Of a stretch of DNA of 64,000 nucleotides, positions 50,440 through 63,695 are shown in pieces. Made by a program: the position numbers and the translations under genes. The notes beneath the pieces were generated by a model that was not told where the DNA came from, did not search any database, and worked only from the letters and a program-made list of their open reading frames with translations. Within the stretch, counting starts at the first letter, position 1. Each line of letters begins with the position of its first letter. This DNA comes from Deltaproteobacteria bacterium (lineage in GTDB: Bacteria; Desulfobacterota; Desulfuromonadia; Geobacterales; Pseudopelobacteraceae), in NCBI GenBank assembly GCA_016182975.1, contig JACPFJ010000009.1, positions 1 through 64,000 on the forward strand, read 5' to 3'.

Positions 50440-51654
50440 CTACTTCCCCATTTTGGAGACGAGATCGTAAATCGGGAGCATGAGCCCCATGATGATGACG
50501 GCGAAGAGCCCGCCGATCACTATCATGACCAGCGGCTCGATGACCTTGCCCAGGGTGTCGGTGGCGTCGTCCAGTTTTTTCGTATAATGTTTCGCCAGGA
50601 ATTCCAGCTGGTTGTCGAGCGTGCCGCTGGTCTCGCCGATGCTGATCATCCGTATCACCAGGGTTGGGAATATGTTACGTTCCTTGAGGGATTCGGAGAT
50701 CAGGTTGCCGAAGAGGATGTTCTCCTTGACCTTGTTCAACTGGACGCTGAAGTATTCGTTCCCCAGAGAAGGTATGATCAGGTCGAAGATCCTGTCGATG
50801 GTCATCCCGGCCACGACCAGTATCCTGAACTGCTCCGCGAACACCGCCACCAGCTTATTGTACACGATCAGCTTGAAGATGGGCATCCTTATCAAGGCCA
50901 GGTCGCGCAGGTATCTGGCCCTGGGATGCTTGCCCATCAGATAACCGCCCAGGGGGAGGAGGAGAAGCGAGAGGAGGAAAAGCTTCCAGTGCGCCTGGAA
51001 CAACTTGCTTACGGTGATGAGAAAGATGGTGAGCGGGGGGAGCTTGACCCCCATGCTCTTCATGGTCACGGTCAGTTTGGGGAGCACGAAGGCGAGCCAG
51101 AAGACCAGCGCCGACAGGGTGGTGGTGATGGCGAAGGCCGGGTACATCAGGGCCTTCTTGATGGCGCTCGCCAGGTTCTGCATCCGAAGCAGGTGCTCGG
51201 CGGCCTCCTGCAGGCTCTCGTCGAAGCGCCCTGTCTGTTCCCCCACCGTGACCAGCCTCCTCATGATGTCCGGAAACAGCGCCCCCTGGGCCTCCAGCGC
51301 CGCGGAAACGGTGCTTCCGCGCTCCACCTGCTGCTTTATGTCCTGAAGGGCGGATCTGAATGCCTTGTTGTCGGTGGAGGAGATGATGTCCTCCAGGCAG
51401 GTGAGTATCGGCATGCCCGCTTTCAGCATCACCGCCAGGTTCTGGGCGAATTCGATGACCTCGGTCCGGCTGACGCGGAACGACTGGAAGTACTTGCGGA
51501 AACGGGCCATGTAATCGGTCGTCTCGCGGATGGAGACGATGTAGAGCCCCTTGGCGCTGACGTCCCTGGAAGCCGTTTCGGCGCTCTCCGATTCCAGGGT
51601 CCCCTTGATCACCTGGCCGGCGGCGTCTATGGCGCTGTAGACATAGAAACTCAT
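50440..51654 (-). CDS. Type II secretion/type IV pilus inner-membrane platform protein (GspF/MshG-like)
   Basis: FYVYSAIDAAGQVIKGTLESESAETASRDVSAKGLYIVSIRE; GspF domains. Confidence 0.9.
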   Translation of the reverse strand: MSFYVYSAIDAAGQVIKGTLESESAETASRDVSAKGLYIVSIRETTDYMARFRKYFQSFRVSRTEVIEFAQNLAVMLKAGMPILTCLEDIISSTDNKAFRSALQDIKQQVERGSTVSAALEAQGALFPDIMRRLVTVGEQTGRFDESLQEAAEHLLRMQNLASAIKKALMYPAFAITTTLSALVFWLAFVLPKLTVTMKSMGVKLPPLTIFLITVSKLFQAHWKLFLLSLLLLPLGGYLMGKHPRARYLRDLALIRMPIFKLIVYNKLVAVFAEQFRILVVAGMTIDRIFDLIIPSLGNEYFSVQLNKVKENILFGNLISESLKERNIFPTLVIRMISIGETSGTLDNQLEFLAKHYTKKLDDATDTLGKVIEPLVMIVIGGLFAVIIMGLMLPIYDLVSKMGK

Positions 51655-53303
51655 CCCGCGACCCTTTGGACCTCATGGATGGTGGTCTGGCCGGCGGCTA
51701 CCTTCTTCAGTCCGTCCACGTACAGGGGCACCATCCCCCCACGCAGCGCGGCCTGAAAGATGGCTCCGGTGGAGGCGCCGGCGTAGATCAACTCTTTGAT
51801 CTCGCTGCTTATGATCATGACCTCGGCGATCGATGTCCGGCCGCTGTAGCCGCTGCTGCCGCACCTGTCGCAGCCGGCGCCGCGAAAGAGCCGTGCGACG
51901 TCCATGCCCGCCTTCTTGAAGAGCGCCTTTTCCGCCTCATCCGCTGCGTACTCCTCCTTGCAGTGCTGGCATATCCGGCGCGCCAGGCGTTGCGCCATGA
52001 CGGCCATAAGGGACGATGAGAGGAGCAGCTTGTCCATCCCCAGGTCCAGAAGGCGCGGGATGGAGGTGACCGCATCGTTGGTGTGCAGGGTGGAGATTAC
52101 CAGGTGGCCGGTTATGGAGGCGCGGATGGCGATCTGGGCCGTTTCACCGTCGCGGATCTCGCCCAGGAGCATGACGTCCGGGTCCTGCCGCATGAAGGTC
52201 CTGGCGGACGAGGCAAAGGTATAGCCGGCCTTCTCGTTGACCTCGGTCTGGCGGACGAAGTTCAGGCGGTATTCGACCGGGTCCTCGACTGTGATCACGT
52301 TTCTCTCCAGCAGGTCGATCTCCCTGAGGCAGGAGTAGAGCGTGGTGGTCTTGCCGCTGCCGGTCGGTCCGGTTACGAGGATGATGCCGTGAGATTTGGC
52401 GAAGAGGCGCCGCAGGGTGTTGACGACTCCTGCGTTCAGCCCCAGGGTGGAGATGTGCATCAGGGCGCCGCTCGTGGAGAGGACCCTGATCACGATGTTC
52501 TCGCCGTAGATCGAGGGAACAGTGGATATGCGCAGGTCGTACTTCTTGTTGAGGAATTCCAGGGTGTATGAGCCGTCCTGGGGAAGCCTCTGCTCGGCGA
52601 TGTCCAGGTGGGCCATGATCTTGATGCGCGACGCCAGCGTCGACTGGATCAGCCGCGGGATGCAGTGGCCGTAGGTGAGGACCCCGTCGATGCGGTAAAA
52701 TACGTGCAGCACCTCCTTGGAAGGGGTGAAGTGGATGTCGGTGGCCTGTCTGCGGATGCCGTCCATGAGGAGCAGGTCGGTCAGCTCGGGGACGATGGCG
52801 GCCGGTACGGCCCCGCCGCTCTTGAGGCCGGAGGTCAATTCTTCCAGCCTCTGTTGCACCGGGTGCTCCACGAAGTAGTAGGCGCTCTCGATGATGTCTC
52901 CGTAGGCGTCCTGGTCCACGAGATAGACCTTGGGGGGCTTGCCGGTCAGGTGGCGCACGGTGTCCACCGCGACGATGTTGCTCGGGTTCGTGACCCCTAT
53001 GGAGAGGATGCCGTCCCTGATCTCCAGGGGAATATAGCCGCTCTTGCGGGCGGTATCCTTGGGGACCAGCCTAAGGGCCTCGTCGGAGATGGTGAAACCG
53101 CGCAGGTCGAGGTATTCCAGGCCGAACTGCTCGGAAATGGTCCGGGCGAACTCCGGCGCGGTCACGAATCCGAGGGAGATCAGGGTGTCACCCAGTATGG
53201 CGCCGGTTACACGCTGCTGGATCAGGGCGATGTTGAGCTGCTTCTTTGTCAGCAGTCCCTTCGAGATGAGCAGGTCGCCTATGCGTACCGGTGCTTGTGC
53301 CAT
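51651..53303 (-). CDS. GspE/PulE/MshE-type assembly ATPase
   Basis: GDLLISKGLLTKKQLNIALIQQ; VTGPTGSGKTTTLYSCL; TVEDPVEY; LRQDPDVMLLGEIRDGETAQIA. Confidence 0.95.
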   Translation of the reverse strand: MAQAPVRIGDLLISKGLLTKKQLNIALIQQRVTGAILGDTLISLGFVTAPEFARTISEQFGLEYLDLRGFTISDEALRLVPKDTARKSGYIPLEIRDGILSIGVTNPSNIVAVDTVRHLTGKPPKVYLVDQDAYGDIIESAYYFVEHPVQQRLEELTSGLKSGGAVPAAIVPELTDLLLMDGIRRQATDIHFTPSKEVLHVFYRIDGVLTYGHCIPRLIQSTLASRIKIMAHLDIAEQRLPQDGSYTLEFLNKKYDLRISTVPSIYGENIVIRVLSTSGALMHISTLGLNAGVVNTLRRLFAKSHGIILVTGPTGSGKTTTLYSCLREIDLLERNVITVEDPVEYRLNFVRQTEVNEKAGYTFASSARTFMRQDPDVMLLGEIRDGETAQIAIRASITGHLVISTLHTNDAVTSIPRLLDLGMDKLLLSSSLMAVMAQRLARRICQHCKEEYAADEAEKALFKKAGMDVARLFRGAGCDRCGSSGYSGRTSIAEVMIISSEIKELIYAGASTGAIFQAALRGGMVPLYVDGLKKVAAGQTTIHEVQRVAG

Positions 53304-53316
53304 TGCGTGTTACCTT

Positions 53317-55059
53317 TCATTCATTGCTGACGATATGGGGGCGCAGGAGCAGCACCAGCTCGGACCTCGACTCTGCGTTGTTTGTCCGGGTGAAGAGCCT
53401 GCCCAGGTACGGTATGTCCCCGATGAACGGTATCTTCTCCTCATTGGAGGTCTCCTTCTTGGAGATCAGGCCGCCGATTATGACCATCTGGCCGTCGCGC
53501 ATCTTGACCGTGGTCGTCATCTCCCTGAGGTCCACGGTTGGAACGGATATGACGGTCTGATTGCCGGCCGACCCGACGGTCTTTTCCTGCAGGGTCACCA
53601 GATCGGAGGTGATCGGGGTGATGTTTATGGATATATCCCCTGTCTCCGAGACATAGGGGACGATGCCGATGATCATGCCGGAGAGGATGCTGCTGGTCTC
53701 CACGCTGAAGGTGGTGACCGGCGTGCTCCCGGCGGCGGCCGTGGTGCTGGAGGTGATCCTGGAGATGAAGCTGGTGTTCCTGCCGACCGTCAGGATGGAG
53801 GCATGCCCGTTCATGACGTTAATCTTCGGGTTGGAGAGGGTTTTGACGTCCCCCTGGGTCTTCAGGGCGGTCAGCAGGGCCTGGAAGTCGGCCCGCCTTA
53901 TCCCGACCTGGAACCTGGACGTGTTGGCGGCCGCCTCGGTGGCGGTGTTAAAGTCGCGGGTGGCGATGTTGAGGGCGCCGAAACCGGTGTTTACCGGACC
54001 TCCCAGCGCCTTGACGTTATTCAGAAAGGACCAGTCGATGCCGAAGTTCAGCCCCTCGTTGAGCTGGACCTCGATGATCCTGGCCTCGATCATCACCTGC
54101 CTGTTGAGCACCTTTCTGACGTTCTCGATGTAGCGCTCCACCTTCTCCATTCCCTTGCGGGTGGCGGTAACCACGATGGTGCCGGTAAGCCTGTTGACGA
54201 TGATGCTCTGCTGCGGCTGGCTCTCGCCGGACGCGCTGGCCCCTCCCGCCCGATCAATGACGGTGAGATCGCTCGCGGCGCCCTCCCTGGCGGATTGAGA
54301 GGGTGTTCCCCGGCTGGGCTGCTTCTCCTGGGGCCGGGCTCCGGAGTCTGCCGTCCTGCCCGTTCTCCCGCCCTGGGCATCCTTCTTTCCCATTAGCCCC
54401 TCAAGGGATTTTTCCAGGGATTCCCAGAAGTCGTGCGCCTTTGTGTCCGCCTTGCTCCCCGATGTTATGGTCCCTTTGACGTTGCTGCTCCCGCCTCCCG
54501 CCGTCATGGCCCCACCGAGGATGTCCCCCCCCACGTCCATGTTGTAGCTGTTGACCAGGGCGGGGTGTCCCAGCTCGAACACCCTGGTGCCTACGGATTC
54601 CACCTTGAGGACGTTGCCCTGGATGGTGTAGAAGCAGTCCACGGTGGAGAAGACGGTCTTCAGGGCATCCTCCGCGGAGGCGTTGCGCAGCGACAGGGTC
54701 ACGGGCTGATCGAGGGGGACGTCCCTGTCGATCAGCAGATTCAGCCCGCTGGCATCGGCCAGCACGTGGAGGACATCGCCCAGGGAGCTGTTCCTGACCA
54801 CGATGTTGACCATCTTGGTCTTGAGCGGCACGATCTCTTCGGTGACAGGGACGAAATCAGGGGGTGTAACCTCGCGAGGCAATGGCGGGGAGTCCGGCTT
54901 CCATCCGGGTGCGCGGGTCATGCCCTCATTAATGAGGGGCTTGTCGGACCTGATGGCATCCGGACGTGCCGAGCAGGCGGTCACGGAAACCACGGCCGTA
55001 AGCACGGCAAGCCGGGCCACGCATCTCAATGCTGTTATCGTCAATCGATGTTTAGCCAT
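53317..55059 (-). CDS. Secretin, MshL-like
   Basis: Lipobox VVSVTACSA; VNIVVRNSSLGDVLHVLADASGLNLLIDRDV; secretin domain VPFIGDIPYLGRLFTRTNNAESRSELVLLLRPHIV. Confidence 0.93.
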   Translation of the reverse strand: MAKHRLTITALRCVARLAVLTAVVSVTACSARPDAIRSDKPLINEGMTRAPGWKPDSPPLPREVTPPDFVPVTEEIVPLKTKMVNIVVRNSSLGDVLHVLADASGLNLLIDRDVPLDQPVTLSLRNASAEDALKTVFSTVDCFYTIQGNVLKVESVGTRVFELGHPALVNSYNMDVGGDILGGAMTAGGGSSNVKGTITSGSKADTKAHDFWESLEKSLEGLMGKKDAQGGRTGRTADSGARPQEKQPSRGTPSQSAREGAASDLTVIDRAGGASASGESQPQQSIIVNRLTGTIVVTATRKGMEKVERYIENVRKVLNRQVMIEARIIEVQLNEGLNFGIDWSFLNNVKALGGPVNTGFGALNIATRDFNTATEAAANTSRFQVGIRRADFQALLTALKTQGDVKTLSNPKINVMNGHASILTVGRNTSFISRITSSTTAAAGSTPVTTFSVETSSILSGMIIGIVPYVSETGDISINITPITSDLVTLQEKTVGSAGNQTVISVPTVDLREMTTTVKMRDGQMVIIGGLISKKETSNEEKIPFIGDIPYLGRLFTRTNNAESRSELVLLLRPHIVSNE

Positions 55060-55535
55060 ATGTCCCTTCCGTCGGTTCTGACCAGAACCCTTGCCTTCTC
55101 TATTTTTACTATCCTGACTGCGCCGAGGGAGGCCCCTTCGCGGAGCACGTGTCCGTCGATGATGGCCATCCTGGCATGGCTGTCGCTGTAGATCATGGAT
55201 ACGGTGGGCAGCTGTCCCGCCGAAGCGTTCCGCTCCTTCGGCAGCGCCGCCGCTTTCGGGGAGGGGATCGGGCCGGGGGGGAAGCCCGTGCCGCCATTCG
55301 CCGTACCCTGGGCCTTTTTTGCCGCCGGAGGCCTTACCGGACACTCCAGCCCCGCATAAACGGGCTGGGACCCCGGCTCGGACACCGCAACGGGCTGAGC
55401 CGAGAAGTTTATCAGCTCCTTCTCTGCGGCTGTCACGCCGGCAGCGGGCATTTTCCAGAACAGGAGCGCTGCAGGTGCGCAGAGCCCTATAAACGGCGCC
55501 AGGAGCATTGCCGCGATGGTCTTGTCTATGGTCAT
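55041..55535 (-). CDS. MshK/PilP-like pilus protein
   Basis: N-terminal TM; C-terminal ARMAIIDGHVLREGASLGAVRIVKIEKARVLVRTDGRDIWLNID. Confidence 0.65.
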   Translation of the reverse strand: MTIDKTIAAMLLAPFIGLCAPAALLFWKMPAAGVTAAEKELINFSAQPVAVSEPGSQPVYAGLECPVRPPAAKKAQGTANGGTGFPPGPIPSPKAAALPKERNASAGQLPTVSMIYSDSHARMAIIDGHVLREGASLGAVRIVKIEKARVLVRTDGRDIWLNID

Positions 55536-56086
55536 GGCAGGCCCCTGTCGAGGGAGAGGACCTTACCGACGACGGTGAATGCCACAACCCCCCTTCCATT
55601 CACCTCCGCCTGCGAGACGGTGATCGAGTCTACCGGGGTAAAGGGGAAGACGGTCTGTTGCAGGTAGCATACGGCGTTGATAAAGTTGCTGTAGCTGGTG
55701 TTTGTGAACTTGAGGGTATACTGAAGCGACGCATCTCCGCCCTTTTTCTCCATCGCCGTGATGGAAATGTCATCCGGTTTGAGTCGCGACTGAATGTCAT
55801 CGATCCTTCCGTAGATGAGCCTCTCCGACGAGCTCTTTTCCACTCCCTGCCCAAGCTGTGTCCTGAGCGTTTCCAGTGAATGTTTCCGGTTCAGGATGGC
55901 CTGTCGCACCCGCGCAAGTCCATCCTTGGCGCGTACAAGCTCCTTGTGCGTCTTTTCCAGTTTCCGCCGCTCCCTTTCCTGGGCGGCGCATGCCGTGCTC
56001 AGGACAATAAACAGCGCGGCCCCTATCCAGAAACGTCTCTTCAACGGTTTGATCGCGTTTTCATACCTGTTGGTCACGAGGTTCAT
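55532..56086 (-). CDS. MshJ/PilO-like pilus protein
   Basis: N-terminal TM then coiled coil, position between MshI- and MshK-like genes. Confidence 0.65.
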   Translation of the reverse strand: MNLVTNRYENAIKPLKRRFWIGAALFIVLSTACAAQERERRKLEKTHKELVRAKDGLARVRQAILNRKHSLETLRTQLGQGVEKSSSERLIYGRIDDIQSRLKPDDISITAMEKKGGDASLQYTLKFTNTSYSNFINAVCYLQQTVFPFTPVDSITVSQAEVNGRGVVAFTVVGKVLSLDRGLP

Positions 56087-57558
56087 GAGCCTTGCCGGGC
56101 GGCGCCGCTGTAGCGGGCCTCTATGCTGAAGGTTTTTTGCTTGACGTCGACGCTGCCGGAGGTCACTGAGTAACCGGGGATCTTTCTCACCCGCTCCTGC
56201 ACCCCTTCATAGATGGCCTGGGTTTCACCGTAGCTGGAGGAGGCAATGTCCCCCTCGATGCGTACGCCGATGAAACCCTCCCCTTTCTGGAGGGATAGCC
56301 CCCTGATGGAATACTCCTTTGAACCGGCAAGGGTCAGGGAGGCCAGGGCGGTCCCGTGGTTAACCGTGGTGCTGAACTTGTTGAGATACTCAATCGGGCG
56401 GCTGAGGGCCTTGGTCTCGTCATCCAGTTTCCTGAATGCCGCCATCTCCTCCCCGGACTTGCCCAGTTGTGTCCGCGAAACGGCGATCCCGGCCTTCAGA
56501 TCGGACAGCGCCATCCGTTCCGTCAGGATGACCCCGGCCAGGAACAGTGCGAGGGTGATCATGACAATGGTTGCGGCGGCGAGGAGCCTCTTGTTTCTCG
56601 TGAAAGCGACGTAGTCCGACGGCAGGATGTCGCCGTCGGCGGGGGAGTCGGCGTAGTGCAGGGCCGCGGCGAGCGGCGCGAGGTAATCCCGGACAATATC
56701 GTGCGGAAGTCCCGCCAGTGCGGGGGGTAATGCGCTCCTGTGCGGCAGTGTCAAATGAGTGGCCGGTTCCGCCGCATGCCCGTGCGGATCGAGTATCACC
56801 GCTTCGGACGGCCTCACGCGGAGGGACTGAAAGCAATAGTCGACGGTCATGTTGATATTCTGGCTGTCAGCGGGAAGGAGAGCCGCATCTGTAGAGGGGA
56901 TTTTGCGGATGAATTCCAGTTCCGTGTTTTCGCTCAAAAGGATGAGTTTCTCCCCCGAAAGGGGAGCGATGAAGATGCGCGCCCTGGCGGGGTCATCGGC
57001 GCATGTCGAGGCGGCCAGCCTGAAAATGGGGTATGGTGCGGCGTAAAGGCGGGAGATCACCTTGCCATGCCGGCTGAACATGGATATGAAATTGGAAAGG
57101 GAGTCGTCCTCATAGCTGAACGCGGCGATCTTGTTGTAAAGAACGCCGTCGATAGTCGTCTCGGCGACAGTGCGGTAAAAGAGGGTGAAGGCGGTCAGTT
57201 CCGGATGGCTCTTCAGTACCTCGGCCCTGACCAGGTTGTCGTAGAATTTGCCGGCCGCCGGGGGCAGGTGGACGATATCCTGATGAAAAAGCGAAGGGTT
57301 GCAGCAGACGATGCAGGTATTCTCCCGGCACGCTGCGAGATAGCCGTCCAGCTCTTCGTGATTAAATGTCCAGGCGCCGTTGACCGTAACCCCGTTGTCG
57401 GAGATATCCGCCTTCACCGCTTGCACAATTGTTCCATCGAGGTAAAATGAAAATATGTTACTCAATTTATCCCCATTCAGATTTATTATGCTTTTCGGTT
57501 TTAAATGCAAGAACTTAAATAACGCCGATTTATACCATGAAATTACGCTTTGAACCAC
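56083..57558 (-). CDS. MshI/PilN-like pilus assembly protein (GTG start proposed)
   Basis: PilM-like cytoplasmic part, single TM (AATIVMITLALFLAGVIL), PilN-like C-terminus. Confidence 0.65.
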   Translation of the reverse strand: MVQSVISWYKSALFKFLHLKPKSIINLNGDKLSNIFSFYLDGTIVQAVKADISDNGVTVNGAWTFNHEELDGYLAACRENTCIVCCNPSLFHQDIVHLPPAAGKFYDNLVRAEVLKSHPELTAFTLFYRTVAETTIDGVLYNKIAAFSYEDDSLSNFISMFSRHGKVISRLYAAPYPIFRLAASTCADDPARARIFIAPLSGEKLILLSENTELEFIRKIPSTDAALLPADSQNINMTVDYCFQSLRVRPSEAVILDPHGHAAEPATHLTLPHRSALPPALAGLPHDIVRDYLAPLAAALHYADSPADGDILPSDYVAFTRNKRLLAAATIVMITLALFLAGVILTERMALSDLKAGIAVSRTQLGKSGEEMAAFRKLDDETKALSRPIEYLNKFSTTVNHGTALASLTLAGSKEYSIRGLSLQKGEGFIGVRIEGDIASSSYGETQAIYEGVQERVRKIPGYSVTSGSVDVKQKTFSIEARYSGAARQGS

Positions 57559-57708
57559 CTGTTTTTCAGCGGCATGGCCGCCGGAATCGTGCTGCATTGG
57601 TTGACTCCAGCGAAAAGGAGGTTCCCCATGATCAGGAAAAGGAATTGCACTGCTGACAAGGCTTTGGATCAGGATCTCGAAAAAGGAAGAGTGGCGGTGT
57701 TGGCCAGC

Positions 57709-57835: not shown

Positions 57836-58264
57836 TTAAGCAAGCGCCTTCTTCATCTCCAGAATATTCCCGCCCTTTATCTTTCTGTATTCCACGGAAT
57901 CCATCAGAGACCTGATTATAAAAATGCCGCGCCCCTTGTCGTCGAGCTTGGCAGGATCAAAGCAGGGATCGGGAATCGCGGTGATGTCGAAACCCTGGCC
58001 GCTATCATAGACCTTGATAGAGATCTCCTTGTCGGAGATGCTGATGCGGATCTCCACCTCCTTGTCGGGATCGGCGGCATTGGCGTGCCTGATGGCGTTG
58101 ACCATGGCCTCGGTAAGCACCACGTTGAGATGATGGGCGAGCGCCTCCCGGTCACCCTTGAAATGGTCAAGCTCCCGCGCCATGTCCTCTCCGATCTTGC
58201 CGATCAGGCACAGGTAGCGGGTCTGGTTGGGCACCTTTATATCCAGTTTGATAGTGTTCTTCAT
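57836..58264 (-). CDS. RsbW/SpoIIAB-like anti-sigma (HATPase) serine kinase
   Basis: VVLTEAMVNAIRHANAADPDKEVEIRISISDKEISIKVYDSGQGFD…GRGIFIIRSLMDSVEY. Confidence 0.92.
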   Translation of the reverse strand: MKNTIKLDIKVPNQTRYLCLIGKIGEDMARELDHFKGDREALAHHLNVVLTEAMVNAIRHANAADPDKEVEIRISISDKEISIKVYDSGQGFDITAIPDPCFDPAKLDDKGRGIFIIRSLMDSVEYRKIKGGNILEMKKALA

Positions 58265-58293
58265 GGTTCCCTCGCACGGTGGGAATGGTAGGC

Positions 58294-58629
58294 TTACATA
58301 CTCTCCAGGGCCTCGTCCACCGTCTGGAAGATGTCAAACACGCGGTGCAGCCGGGTAAGCTCGAACATGGATTTGACCTGGGTCTGGAGCCCGCAGAGTT
58401 TGAGGCTTCCCTGGCGCGTGGAGGCGTTCTTGAAGCCGGATACCAGTACCCCCAGGCCCGAGCTGTCGATGAAACGCACCTCTTTCAGGTCTATCAGGAT
58501 ATACTTTGTCCCCTCTTCGAAGAGCCGGTTCATTTCGGTTTTCAGCTCTTCGGAATTGTGCGCGTCAAGGCGTTCCTCCCGTACGAAGATAACCATCAGG
58601 TTGCCGTTTGCTTCAGTTTTCAGGTTCAT
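58294..58629 (-). CDS. STAS-domain anti-sigma factor antagonist
   Basis: YILIDLKEVRFIDSSGLGVLVSGFKNASTRQGSLKLCGLQTQVKSMFELTRLHRVFDIF. Confidence 0.93.
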   Translation of the reverse strand: MNLKTEANGNLMVIFVREERLDAHNSEELKTEMNRLFEEGTKYILIDLKEVRFIDSSGLGVLVSGFKNASTRQGSLKLCGLQTQVKSMFELTRLHRVFDIFQTVDEALESM

Positions 58630-58646
58630 GGCTGCATCCTTTCTGT

Positions 58647-61600
58647 TTAATGTATTTTAAGCACCACAAGTGAAACATCGTCCTGCAAGGTCTCCATGCC
58701 GATAAAATCGGACACCGCCTGATAAAACGCATTCATGATGCCGTTGACCGGCAGATGATGCACGCTGTCGAGTATGGCGCAGATACGTTCGTTTCCGAAC
58801 ATCTCTCCTTCCGGGTTAGTGGCCTCGGTCAGCCCGTCCGTATAGAATAGCACCACGTCGCCCTTTAGCAACTCGACCCCCCGCTCCTCGAACACGACGG
58901 ACCTTTTCACGCCGATGATGAGCCCTTCCGCATCCAGCTCGATGCAAGAGAGTTCGTTGTTCCGCCTGATGACGGGGTGATTGTGCCCGGCATTGGCAAA
59001 AGAGAGCCGGCCGGTTGCCGAATTGTACCTCGCGTAGAACATGGTGATGAACAGCTCGGCGCGGGTCAGGTCTTCGTAGAGCTGGTTGTTGAGGGTCTGC
59101 AGGATGGTGCTGGCATTGAGGGCCGAATTGGCCTGGGCGCGCAAGAGGGTGCGCACCTCGGCCATGATCAGGGCGGCCCCGACGCTGTGACCGGATACAT
59201 CGGCAATCAGCAGGTCCACGACGTGCTCGTCGTACTGGAAGAAATCGTAGTAGTCTCCTCCCACGTGGGCGGCCGGGATGCAACGTCCCCCCATCTCGAC
59301 CCCGAGCAACTCCGGCGCGGTGTCCGGCAGAAGCGAGACCTGTATCTGCTGGGCGATCTCCATGTCCCGCATCATGCGGGCATGCAGTAATTGGGCCTGT
59401 ATCTTCTGGGAGCGCTCCCGCTCCTTGGCCTCGATCTCGCGGACAATGGTGACGGCCTGGGCAAGCTGTCCGGTCAGGCTGGAGAGCAGGCCGGTGAACT
59501 CCTCGGTGAAGAGCCCGGCGATGGACTTGGAAAAGACCGACATGATGCCGAGGGACTGTTCCCCTTCGCGAAGGATCGGGATGTGGGCGCAGGAGACGAT
59601 CCCCTCGGCAATGGTCCGTTCCAGCGAGACGGTGCCGGCGGCCAGCCTGGCGTCATTGACAAAATGGGCCTTGCGGTCCAAAAGCGCCATGTCGCAGTAG
59701 GGCCTGCTCTCCGTGAACCAGTGCTTCGGGTTGATCGGACGGCGATTGTTCCCCTGATAACTCCTGATCGTGAGGACGTCATCCTCGGCGCGCAGCTGGA
59801 TGATGGCGGCATCCAGCTTGAATTCCTTGAGCAGGAGGTTCAGCAGGTCATCCATGATGATCTGCAGATCGAGGGTACGGTTGATGATCTCGGACGCCTT
59901 CAGGCGGACGAAGAGCGCCTCGCGGCTTTGATCCAGGGAGGTCCTGACGTTGCTGAAGATATCGTAGACCGATTCCATCCGTGAGCCCATGTCGGAGAGG
60001 AAGCTGTCCACGATGGCCCCGGCCGCGGCAGCGCCGACCGAGCCGGCCAGGTTCTTTTCGGTGAAGCGTTTCAGGTTTGGCAGCTCGAACTCGGATACGT
60101 TGCCGCTGGCGTCGATCTCGCGGTCGCCGATATAGGCGAAGATCGCCCGGTGCGCCTCCGCCTCGCCGATGAACTTGGCCATCAGGTTGACGAACTGCGT
60201 GATGGTGACCGGCTTGGAGAGGCGCTTTGTCTCGGCGTGGCGGTAGCCCTGCTCCAGGTCGAACGTGCCGAAAAATTTGCGGAGTTGGTCATGTTCGCGC
60301 TCGTCCTGCCTGAGCAGGATCGAGCAGACGATGTAGCCGCCAATGTTGAAGAGCATGCTCCAGAACAGCGAGTGGCTCCAGAGGTCCATGCCGGTGAGGC
60401 CGAACAGCTCGGTCGGCCTGAGCAGACCGATGCCGAACGGTCCTGTCGACAGCAGGTCGGCGCTGATCCAGCCGGAGCGGCTGAAGGAGGGGAGCAGCAG
60501 CGTGTAGAACCAGGTCAGGAAGCCGAGCAGGATGCCGGTGATGGCGCCGGCCTTGTTGCCGCGCCGCCAGTAAAGCCCCCCCAGCATGGCCGGCAGGAAC
60601 TGCGCGGCCGCCGTGAAGGAGATCATCCCCGTGTTGACCAGCATGAATGATTCGCCCACGATGCGGTAATAAAAATAACCCATGAAGACCACCAGGAAGA
60701 TACCCAGCCGTTTGAGGTTGATCAGCAGGTACGGAAACCAGGCCTGGGGGGTGAAGCGGACGATGATCGGCATGAAGATGTGGTTGAGCAGCATGGTGGA
60801 GATCGCCACCGATTCCACCATCACCATGCCGGCGGCGGCCGAGAGCCCGCCAAGGAAGGCCAGCAAGGCAATGCCGTCGTGACCGGTGATCAGGGGGATA
60901 CTGATGACGAAGAAGTCGGCGCCGGTCTGGCTGCCGGTGGTGAGAATGCCCCCGATGGCGATCGGCATGACGAACAGGTTGATCAGAAACAGGTAGATAG
61001 GAAGGAGCCACATGGCCTTGGTGATGTGCCGCTCGTCCGAGTTTTCTATCACCATGACGTGGAACTGCCGCGGCAGCATCATGATCGCCCCCATGGACAT
61101 GAACAGCATGGTGAAGGTTGGGGTATTGCCCGGTTGATCAAGGGTGAACAGGCGGGTGAAAAGCTCTGGTCGCAGGGTGCGGAAGCGGGTGAATATATCT
61201 TCGAAACCGTCGAAGAGTTGGTAGGTCACGAACAGGCCGACCCCCAGCAGGCTCACCAGCTTGACTATCGATTCGAACGCCACGGCGGCAATCAGCCCCT
61301 CGTGGCGTTCCGACGAGACCAGCCTGCGGGCGCCGAACATGACGCCGAACAGGGACAGGATCAGCGCCAGCAGCAGACCGGTGGGCAGGGTCGTTTCCGT
61401 GCCGCCGTGCGGGATGGGGATTCCTTCGGCCCCATAGCCGCTGATCAGGTAAAAGCTGGTCGAGACCGCCTTAATCTGCACGGCGATATAGGGCATGATG
61501 CCGAGTACGGCGATGATGGTCACCAGCGCGCCCACCCAGATGGACTTGCCGTAGCGCAGGCTGATGAAGTCGGCTATGGAGGTGATGTTGTTCTCCCTGC

Positions 61601-61883
61601 TGATCCGGACGATGCGGCGCAGCAGGAAGAACCAGGAGAAGGCGGTCAGGGAAGGGCCGAGGTAGATCATCAGGAAGTCGAGGCCGATGGTGGCCGCCCT
61701 GCCGACACTGCCATAGAAGGTCCAGGTGGTGCAGTAGACCGCTATGGAGAGGGTATAGACATAGGGATTGGCGATGATGCTGCGGCCGGCATCCTTACGG
61801 CGGTGAGCGTACCAGGCGATCAGGAAGATCAGCAGGGTGTAGATGAGTGATATGAGTGCCGCTGGGATGAGGCCGTTTTTCAC
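58647..61883 (-). CDS. SLC5-type transporter domain fused to STAC-like linker, GAF-like region and SpoIIE/PP2C phosphatase
   Basis: About 13 TM symporter-like N-terminus (ITSIADFISLRYGKS; FMSMGAIMMLPRQFHVMVIEN); HVGGDYYDFFQYDEHVVDLLIADVSGHSVGAALIMAEVRTLLR; GDVVLFYTDGLTEA. Confidence 0.9.
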   Translation of the reverse strand: MKNGLIPAALISLIYTLLIFLIAWYAHRRKDAGRSIIANPYVYTLSIAVYCTTWTFYGSVGRAATIGLDFLMIYLGPSLTAFSWFFLLRRIVRISRENNITSIADFISLRYGKSIWVGALVTIIAVLGIMPYIAVQIKAVSTSFYLISGYGAEGIPIPHGGTETTLPTGLLLALILSLFGVMFGARRLVSSERHEGLIAAVAFESIVKLVSLLGVGLFVTYQLFDGFEDIFTRFRTLRPELFTRLFTLDQPGNTPTFTMLFMSMGAIMMLPRQFHVMVIENSDERHITKAMWLLPIYLFLINLFVMPIAIGGILTTGSQTGADFFVISIPLITGHDGIALLAFLGGLSAAAGMVMVESVAISTMLLNHIFMPIIVRFTPQAWFPYLLINLKRLGIFLVVFMGYFYYRIVGESFMLVNTGMISFTAAAQFLPAMLGGLYWRRGNKAGAITGILLGFLTWFYTLLLPSFSRSGWISADLLSTGPFGIGLLRPTELFGLTGMDLWSHSLFWSMLFNIGGYIVCSILLRQDEREHDQLRKFFGTFDLEQGYRHAETKRLSKPVTITQFVNLMAKFIGEAEAHRAIFAYIGDREIDASGNVSEFELPNLKRFTEKNLAGSVGAAAAGAIVDSFLSDMGSRMESVYDIFSNVRTSLDQSREALFVRLKASEIINRTLDLQIIMDDLLNLLLKEFKLDAAIIQLRAEDDVLTIRSYQGNNRRPINPKHWFTESRPYCDMALLDRKAHFVNDARLAAGTVSLERTIAEGIVSCAHIPILREGEQSLGIMSVFSKSIAGLFTEEFTGLLSSLTGQLAQAVTIVREIEAKERERSQKIQAQLLHARMMRDMEIAQQIQVSLLPDTAPELLGVEMGGRCIPAAHVGGDYYDFFQYDEHVVDLLIADVSGHSVGAALIMAEVRTLLRAQANSALNASTILQTLNNQLYEDLTRAELFITMFYARYNSATGRLSFANAGHNHPVIRRNNELSCIELDAEGLIIGVKRSVVFEERGVELLKGDVVLFYTDGLTEATNPEGEMFGNERICAILDSVHHLPVNGIMNAFYQAVSDFIGMETLQDDVSLVVLKIH

Positions 61884-62134
61884 TGCTGATGCGTCTCCTG
61901 ATTCTTGTCGTCGTTATGGCCTACGGCGAGGGTGAACAGGTAGATGACGAAGATGGAGACCGCCCAGCCTATGAAGAGGTAGAGAAACATGAGCGGGAAA
62001 CCGAAGATGGTGCTGGGTTTGTTGAATATGTGCATGAAGGGGAAGTTCATCATGATGATGCCCATGATGAAAAAGATGACCCATGATTCCGGCAATTGGA
62101 GCCGGTGCAGGAGGCGGCGCAGATGCTTCGGCAT
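61880..62134 (-). CDS. Small two-TM membrane protein coupled to the SLC5 gene
   Basis: MPKHLRRLLHRLQLPESWVIFFIMGIIMMNFPFMHIFNKPSTIFGFPLMFLYLFIGWAVSIFVIYLF; 4-bp overlap. Confidence 0.75.
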   Translation of the reverse strand: MPKHLRRLLHRLQLPESWVIFFIMGIIMMNFPFMHIFNKPSTIFGFPLMFLYLFIGWAVSIFVIYLFTLAVGHNDDKNQETHQQ

Positions 62135-62135
62135 G

Positions 62136-63695
62136 TCAGGAGAGCCTCCCGTAGATCTGGTTGGTGAGGGATGCGGGCGAACCGGCGGCAATAAGGGTGA
62201 TGAGCAACCCTTCTTCTTCGCCGGGGGGCTCGAACGCCTGCCGTTGTTGGTCCAGCAGTTCCACTCGTCCGTCGGACACCGAGCGCCCCGACGCGCTGCG
62301 CTCCGTCAGTCTGCGGCGATTCTCGGCGTCGCCGCAGGTCACACGCAGGATAACGAATGCCGCCGAGCAGCGCTCCGCCAGGGTGGCACAGCGGGAGCGG
62401 TCTGCCCGACGCATGAAACTGGCGTCGAGGAGCACGGAACGCCCCGAGGCGAGTTCCGCCTCTGCCAGACGGATCAGTTCGGCGTAGACGGCGTCGCTGG
62501 TCCGGCGGTCATAGAGCCCTGCGGCATAGGCCTCGGGGACCGGCGTACCCGGCTGGAGGCCGGCCAGGCGCTTGCGGACGGCATCGGAACTGAAACCGGC
62601 TATCCCCAACTCGAAGCAGAGCTGCTCGGCGAGCGTGCTCTTTCCGCACCCCATCACCCCGCAGGTGATGAAGAGGGTCGGACGCAGCCCGCGGCGCTCG
62701 ATGTAACCGCGCGCCAGCCTGAAGTATCTGGTGGCCCTCTCCGCGGCGCGCTCACGTTCATGCCGTTCAATGCCGTGGTCGTTCAGGCGGAAACTCTCCA
62801 CCTTACCCCGCACGACGGCGCGATAGATCTTGTAGAAATCGATCAGGGCGGTCATGCCGGAATCGCCGGATGCCGCCAGGTAGGCAGCGATCACCTCCCC
62901 GGCCAGGTCATGGCGTCCATGGTAATCCAGATCCATCAGCAGAAAGGCCACATCTGCCGCGGTATCGCAACAGCGAAAGCGTTCGTTGAACTCGATACAG
63001 TCGAAGATACACACCCTGTCTGCGAGCATGCAGATGTTCTCCAGGTGGATGTCGCCATCGCATTCGCGGATAAACCCTTCATCGACCCTGCGGCTGAAAA
63101 GCTCCGCGTTTTCCTCGGCGAACGAGGAGACCCACTCCCTGATCCGTTCGCGCTCCCCGGCGGGGAGGGTCGTGTCTTCGAAGGGGATCATCTGCTCCAG
63201 GTTTTCCAGCCAGTTGAACATGATCCGGTCAAGATGCCCGTATTCTGAGATGGCGGGAGAGGTGGGAGCGGCCTGGTGAAAAGCGGCTATGACACGGGCC
63301 ACCTCGCGCATGTCGGCGACCGATATCTCGTTGCTTTTCACCATGCGGTCCAGCATCCGCTCCGCAGGCATGCGTTTCATCCGGACGGCGAAGTCGATAA
63401 TCGGGCCGTCTCCGAAAAAGGCGGCGCCACCCGGGGTCTCGCGCAGTTCCACGACACCTTCGTAGATATCCGGGCAGAGCCGGCGGTTGAGCCTGACCTC
63501 CTCGTTGCAGTAAAAACGGCGGCGGTCGATGGTGGAAAAGTTGAGAAAGCCGAAATCGACCGCTTTTTTGACCTTGTAGGCGTGGCTGTCTGTCAGGAAT
63601 ATCCATGAGACATGGGTCTGCAGCATTTCCACGTAGTGCGTGGGCTCCGGATAAGCCTCTGGTTTCAATAACGATTTTAATATCGTCCGTATCAT
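62136..63695 (-). CDS. APH-like kinase domain fused to P-loop kinase (AAA_33-like) domain
   Basis: ECDGDIHLENICMLADRVCIFDCIEFNERFRCCDTAADVAFLLMDLDYHG; FITCGVMGCGKSTLAEQL. Confidence 0.85.
   Translation of the reverse strand: MIRTILKSLLKPEAYPEPTHYVEMLQTHVSWIFLTDSHAYKVKKAVDFGFLNFSTIDRRRFYCNEEVRLNRRLCPDIYEGVVELRETPGGAAFFGDGPIIDFAVRMKRMPAERMLDRMVKSNEISVADMREVARVIAAFHQAAPTSPAISEYGHLDRIMFNWLENLEQMIPFEDTTLPAGERERIREWVSSFAEENAELFSRRVDEGFIRECDGDIHLENICMLADRVCIFDCIEFNERFRCCDTAADVAFLLMDLDYHGRHDLAGEVIAAYLAASGDSGMTALIDFYKIYRAVVRGKVESFRLNDHGIERHERERAAERATRYFRLARGYIERRGLRPTLFITCGVMGCGKSTLAEQLCFELGIAGFSSDAVRKRLAGLQPGTPVPEAYAAGLYDRRTSDAVYAELIRLAEAELASGRSVLLDASFMRRADRSRCATLAERCSAAFVILRVTCGDAENRRRLTERSASGRSVSDGRVELLDQQRQAFEPPGEEEGLLITLIAAGSPASLTNQIYGRLS

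Follow-up and report, generated by a model that had tools for sequence, protein, structure and literature searches.

A CbrA-like SLC5-STAC-GAF sensor with a PP2C phosphatase output, encoded beside a STAS/RsbW-like pair in Geobacter-like bacteria

CbrA/CbrB (with CbrX) of Pseudomonas, CrbS/MxtR and RpuS are built from a 13-TM SLC5 domain, a STAC domain, a cytosolic sensor domain and an output domain, and the outputs described for STAC proteins are histidine kinases or GGDEF domains (PMC5715377). The cbrX gene lies directly ahead of cbrA and is translationally coupled to it (PMC6591292); in 10ED, the CbrXA SLC5-STAC structure, CbrX is bound to the SLC5 domain of CbrA, and a role in dimerization has been proposed for it (preprint PMC13022988). 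A PP2C phosphatase domain behind a helical linker, with a linked STAS protein and kinase, is the hallmark of Bacillus RsbU/RsbP/SpoIIE with RsbV-RsbW and of chlamydial RsbU-RsbV-RsbW, none of which has a transporter domain. The Bacillus systems have SigB or SigF as partner, whereas chlamydial RsbU, also a membrane sensor and proposed to be metabolite-responsive, works without SigB. A SMART search reported in a 2021 review turned up some SSS proteins of actinobacteria that also contain GAF, PP2C_SIG and HATPase_c domains (PMC7918813).

The protein analyzed here, encoded in a 64,000-nt stretch of DNA (the window), resembles the CbrA group in its 13-TM SLC5 domain, STAC domain and cytosolic sensor domain, and, for CbrA itself, in the overlapping gene for a small two-TM protein just upstream and in keeping the Na2-site lysine and most pocket aromatics. 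It differs from that group in having GAF in place of PAS and a PP2C phosphatase in place of a DHp-CA histidine kinase, and where a response regulator would be expected its partner genes encode a STAS protein and an RsbW-like kinase. With the Streptomyces and Actinospica SSS-GAF-PP2C_SIG(-HATPase_c) proteins it shares a symporter-family domain, GAF and PP2C_SIG; those proteins, however, are described as having HATPase_c in the same chain, and STAC, an operon or partner genes do not form part of their description (PMC7918813). The literature searched holds no description of the fusion or its operon in Geobacter-like bacteria, and no paper that links Geobacter with SpoIIE and anti-sigma factors.

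Five genes, all on the minus strand (as are all window coordinates given below), probably form a single operon. In the order, its first gene encodes an AAA_33-type P-loop kinase (62136..63695; Pfam AAA_33 1.3e-26); the reading frame is open from 63857, and the start kept in relatives lies near 63695, giving ~520 aa. One base separates its TGA stop from the ATG of the gene for the small two-TM hairpin protein (84 aa, 61880..62134), which shares the sequence GTGA, a 4-bp overlap, with the chimera gene (58647..61883). The chimera starts with GTG and runs for 1,078 aa with no internal stop; behind it lie the genes for the STAS protein (58294..58629) and the RsbW-like kinase (57836..58264). The initial annotation had placed SLC5, STAC, GAF and PP2C in one continuous protein, with an overlapping small membrane protein gene ahead and STAS and RsbW-like genes behind. 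The single 1,078-codon frame, the GTGA overlap, and the coordinates and Pfam matches of the two partners bear this out. Its four-gene extent also stands, except that the operon probably has one more gene at its upstream end; this fifth gene and the parallel to CbrX had been overlooked. Pfam matches for SpoIIE, GAF, STAS and HATPase_c_2 are well over their cut-offs. A gene-boundary or assembly artefact that separates transporter from phosphatase is next to inconceivable: the query is matched in 95 of 97 relatives, most with the full-length fusion in one frame at ~50–84% identity across the order, and dozens of independent genomes, some of them single contigs, carry this one-frame fusion.

Downstream of the operon and on the same strand, positions 50440–57600 of the window hold secretin, T2SSE/MshEN ATPase and T2SSF genes, a cluster for either type II secretion or an MSHA-like type IV pilus; its first gene probably begins later than the listed TTG ORF. 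In most relatives this cluster is not kept 3' of the operon.

The SLC5 (LeuT-fold) domain comprises residues 8–520 (60324..61862). Because the Pfam SSF model gave no match and NCBIfam Na_symport_lg matched this part weakly, the assignment is based on comparison with the PDB, in which a phmmer sequence search matched residues 8–468 of the 13-TM domain to the CbrA cryo-EM chain (10ed_A, 1e-75). An AlphaFold model of this part (mean pLDDT of our models 76 and 74, moderate confidence) adopts a LeuT-type fold and matches the structures of SGLT, NIS and CHT1. Lys208, nearly invariant in 29 orthologues, aligns with CbrA Lys196, which sits in the Na2 site and fits proton-driven, sodium-independent transport (PMC13022988). 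CbrA pocket residues Tyr51, Trp55, Phe71, Tyr75 and Phe406 correspond to Tyr50, Trp54, Phe70, Tyr74 and Phe423 of the chimera, all invariant or nearly so in the same orthologues; Ser53 and Ala56 of CbrA are replaced by Thr52 and Thr55. These residues would fit a Na+-independent carrier, or a carrier-like receptor, perhaps for an amino acid, and by analogy to CbrA the domain is probably H+-coupled or Na+-independent. Two neighbours conserved across the order and divergent from the operon (L113:6852-10201) encode a TPR protein and a peptide-type solute-binding protein (SBP_bac_5); these dipeptide-type ABC/TPR neighbours are possibly a weak hint at peptide- or amino-acid-related ligands.

The small protein matches CbrX in position, gene overlap and size. 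The CbrX chain in the PDB showed no sequence match to it up to E 10, so we call it CbrX-like by position and topology only; Pfam returned a weak DUF3311 match for 2 of 25 small proteins. The family has two TM segments and an invariant core of G25, P32, F37, P47, W57 and I61, and its genes immediately precede the sensor genes, whether these end in a phosphatase or in a kinase, with homologues ahead of 72/72 operon-type chimeras and of 63/68 non-PP2C SLC5-STAC genes examined.

The STAC domain (residues ~551–631, 59991..60233) was placed by profile alignment: a profile of 41 relatives aligns with the CbrA SLC5-STAC chain over CbrA residues 13–592 at E 4e-102. We rely on this profile because the best 50 Foldseek matches included neither 10ED nor an isolated STAC structure. 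AlphaFold predicts, with moderate confidence, the four helices at 561–572, 574–585, 601–616 and 618–629. In the region of the STAC motif LGPx(x)A (PMC4834066), G573 and A577 are invariant, and Pro is replaced by Glu in the chimera. The GAF domain follows at residues 671–811 (59451..59873; Pfam GAF_2 1.8e-11; 2qyb 4e-51). Fold comparison gave 56% identity to 2qyb, a structure of the GAF region from a putative Geobacter sulfurreducens PCA membrane protein; from this match, G. sulfurreducens very probably has the same protein. A continuous 58-residue helix (794–851, 59331..59504) connects GAF to PP2C in the AlphaFold model and is placed like the coiled-coil linker of RsbU, which dimerizes and activates the phosphatase domains and has relatives serving many sensor domains (PMC12143880).

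The C-terminal part is a SpoIIE-type PP2C phosphatase domain (Pfam residues 886–1077, 58653..59228; SpoIIE 3.3e-51). Its fold in the AlphaFold model matches the RssB, SiaA and SpoIIE phosphatases, and the acidic metal ligands D877, D895, D1016, D1068 and D1069 are invariant in the 29-orthologue alignment. The chimera lacks HisKA/HATPase_c and has SpoIIE at that place; it is thus built like a CbrA-type kinase but is not one. The architecture first proposed, a CbrA-like SLC5-STAC sensor with an RsbU/SpoIIE-type phosphatase output, is therefore recovered by Pfam for GAF and PP2C and by PDB and profile comparison with CbrA for SLC5 and STAC.

The partner gene products have the expected motifs of an antagonist/kinase pair. 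The single-domain STAS protein, RsbV/SpoIIAA-like (Pfam STAS 3.9e-23; TIGR00377 2.2e-24, above cut-off), has a DSSG motif at 55–58 with Ser56 as the candidate phosphosite. The RsbW/SpoIIAB-like kinase (Pfam HATPase_c_2 2e-25) has an N box at 52–61, a G1 box at 87–93 and a G2 box at 111–117, and its best NCBIfam matches, SpoIIAB and RsbW, are under the equivalog cut-offs. In the first set of orthologous loci read (L001 and L004-L032, 30 in total), every locus has the small gene, the fusion and both partner genes. Across 81 fusion rows, which include some places counted from two collections, STAS and kinase stand beside the fusion in 72, all with the small gene; in 62 of these 72 rows with partners the AAA_33 gene lies directly upstream of the small gene (order).

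Censuses of whole genomes tie the phosphatase to this pair. In the single-contig genome of Geobacter sp. AOG1 (G064), a SpoIIE domain, a STAS domain and a strong HATPase_c_2 gene each occur just once, every time in this operon; in a second relative (G086) the fusion contains the only SpoIIE domain of the genome, and in several complete relatives the operon kinase is the only strong HATPase_c_2 gene. The fusion is missing from nine near-complete genomes (G016, G036, G038, G046, G050, G053, G055, G059 and G071), which also have no orthologue of the operon STAS or kinase, with only distant matches of up to ~40% identity; because eight of the nine come from one genus, the independent loss events are few. 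One relative, G084, has lost SLC5-STAC-GAF together with the small gene (L168:2548-5782) and keeps, adjacent and in order, the AAA_33-type gene, PP2C alone (267 aa), STAS and the RsbW-like kinase. The linker helix thus marks where the sensor and switch halves of the system come apart, and the switch can run on another input, since G084 keeps it without the transporter. Taken with the censuses and the co-loss, this natural deletion is strong evidence that the phosphatase belongs with the operon STAS/kinase pair; together, census, co-loss and gene linkage point indirectly to the operon STAS protein as the highly likely, predicted substrate. Some relatives carry further SpoIIE or HATPase_c_2 genes, so that cross-talk is possible.

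The fusion also occurs in two further families of the class (f5 and f6), where the AAA_33 gene was not seen upstream of the chimera at the loci read (L150-L152). Within a sample of 247 phylum genomes, every full-length match belongs to the class; in the other genomes the match stops at about residue 830 or before it, and the shorter matches examined outside the class are SLC5-STAC-GAF or SLC5-STAC histidine kinases, as are two betaproteobacterial relatives scanned (SLC5-STAC kinases). A plasmid search outside the class returned no record covering 80% of the query, and its SLC5-STAC matches, where annotated, are mostly kinases. The restriction to the class holds for what was covered: the sampled phylum genomes, a genome scan based on patterns, and plasmids. 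One plasmid match (NC_020548.1, Azoarcus sp. KH32C) is annotated as an EAL domain protein, which suggests yet another output on the SLC5-STAC sensor.

The SLC5-STAC-GAF histidine kinases of the same phylum share the first 830 residues of the chimera at ~40–47% identity and have a homologous small upstream gene, but they end in HisKA-HATPase_c, sometimes with receiver domains, and lack a linked STAS/RsbW-like pair. In a midpoint-rooted tree of the SLC5-STAC part, all phosphatase fusions form one clade (100/99), sister to these GAF-kinases (97/88). Because the fusions form a single clade beside the GAF-kinases, the sequences indicate that a phosphatase most likely replaced the kinase once, near the base of the class. 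Fusions lacking linked STAS and kinase genes arose twice as paralogues, and some share a genome with an operon-type fusion. The window's own genome has such a second SLC5-STAC-GAF-PP2C fusion, 50% identical and partnerless (G000:C38:119881-123066; L002, L132), between a MobA-like nucleotidyltransferase gene and a YqeC-like gene (from translations); a PAS-sigma54 activator is encoded nearby, as it is near a related paralogue (L126). The members of another partnerless paralogue clade (L127, L128 and L051, ~60% identical) are adjoined by a divergent gene with a Mcp40H-20-type sensor domain (Pfam for L128), possibly a second input for these fusions. Two SLC5-STAC-GAF kinase genes (L129:7721-14820 and L131:3855-11096) adjoin genes for a DUF294 nucleotidyltransferase and a HAMP-PAS-exonuclease.

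Architecture, homologies, linkage, single origin and co-inheritance of the three signalling proteins come from sequence, structure comparison and comparative genomics. On these grounds we favour, as the probable reading, a CbrA-type transceptor with a PP2C output directed at the partner-switching pair of its own operon. In this model, the state of STAC and of the long signalling helix would be set by GAF together with SLC5, against which the CbrX-like protein would pack. By analogy to RsbU, ordering of helix 794–851 would align or dimerize the PP2C domains, which would then dephosphorylate the operon STAS protein at Ser56. Dephosphorylated STAS would capture the RsbW-like kinase so that the kinase's bound target is released; with the phosphatase idle, the kinase would rephosphorylate STAS and re-capture the target. 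Family knowledge and comparative evidence suggest the steps from phosphatase through STAS to kinase, and we infer those from ligand to helix.

The ligand or transport state of SLC5 is, by analogy, a rather likely input, and the GAF domain may be the main sensor. It is doubtful, in our view, that GAF is the real sensor of a cytosolic ligand while SLC5 is a retained anchor, or an independent transporter that only tunes the phosphatase. Such an arrangement would recall CbrA, in which SLC5 does no more than modulate the kinase, and whose activities in vitro did not change significantly with histidine (PMC7096432); CbrA lacking SLC5 still signals, and its SLC5 domain can be swapped for that of CrbS with target expression kept (PMC7096432, PMC5715377). 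GAF is also conserved, with a mean column identity of 0.70 and 31 invariant columns. Conservation of SLC5 (0.78, 127 invariant columns) and STAC (0.81, 36 invariant columns), however, does not fall below that of GAF and PP2C; it extends to the pocket residues and Lys208, for which a plain membrane anchor would have no use, and G084 lost GAF along with SLC5-STAC. A different picture makes the STAS/kinase pair a hub for several phosphatases, the fusion being just one of them. Five relatives (G004, G020, G062, G069 and G082) have two to nine SpoIIE matches against one strong HATPase_c_2 gene, and the paralogous fusions without partners of their own would fit such a hub. In Bacillus, RsbU and RsbP converge on RsbV. 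Against this, the fusion suffices in G064 and G086, since no other SpoIIE domain exists there, and the operon STAS is the only STAS in G064; we regard a hub of this kind as unlikely.

The initial annotation had noted that no sigma factor gene lies alongside, and the neighbouring genes read likewise include none, whether within the operon or next to it. In two relatives checked, G064 and G086 (the window's own genome is only 66% complete), no sigma factor reached the SigBFG cut-off; their sigma factors are RpoD, an RpoS/RpoD-like one, RpoH, FliA or ECF types. With no SigB/F/G-type sigma factor in these two genomes, we expect the target to be a sigma factor other than SigB or a different protein altogether. 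The downstream neighbours, which include hydrogenase genes, lgt and others, vary among relatives and were rejected as targets. That the target is a sigma factor we consider an even chance. Somewhat short of that stands a switch in which the kinase holds no sigma factor and acts on another protein, or in which free STAS is the effector, as for Vibrio fischeri SypA. The lack of a sigma gene beside the operon and of a SigB/F/G-type factor in G064 and G086 fits this view, and STAS-only proteins with non-canonical outputs are known (PMC8256260). On the other side, the kinase is closest to the RsbW/SpoIIAB models, though under their cut-offs, and the chlamydial Rsb system, in which RsbU is metabolite-responsive in the current model, controls the housekeeping sigma factor without SigB (PMC8256260). 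By analogy, the chlamydial system is the nearest working precedent for the operon. A more specific version of the transceptor model, in which occupancy or turnover of an H+-coupled SLC5 domain would directly gate PP2C through a CbrX-type dimer interface and STAC, set the phosphorylation of STAS and thereby release a non-SigB target (for example an RpoS-like or housekeeping sigma factor), is tentative and, taken as a whole, rather improbable; if true, the operon would be the main nutrient-controlled partner switch of Geobacter-like bacteria.

A nutrient-type sensor thus appears to have been rewired to a different molecular switch in Geobacter-like bacteria, and the SLC5-STAC sensor would be a module that evolution moved from histidine kinases to PP2C phosphatases. 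An output swap of this kind has been predicted for coiled-coil-linked sensors (PMC12143880); for an SLC5-STAC sensor, a change from kinase to phosphatase was not described in the literature searched. The CbrX idea would extend beyond Pseudomonas, and Geobacter-like bacteria, important for metal reduction and current production, would gain a candidate nutrient-controlled switch. Strains with one PP2C, one STAS protein and one such kinase may offer a clean setting for the question, also posed by CbrA, of how a transporter domain speaks to a signalling domain.
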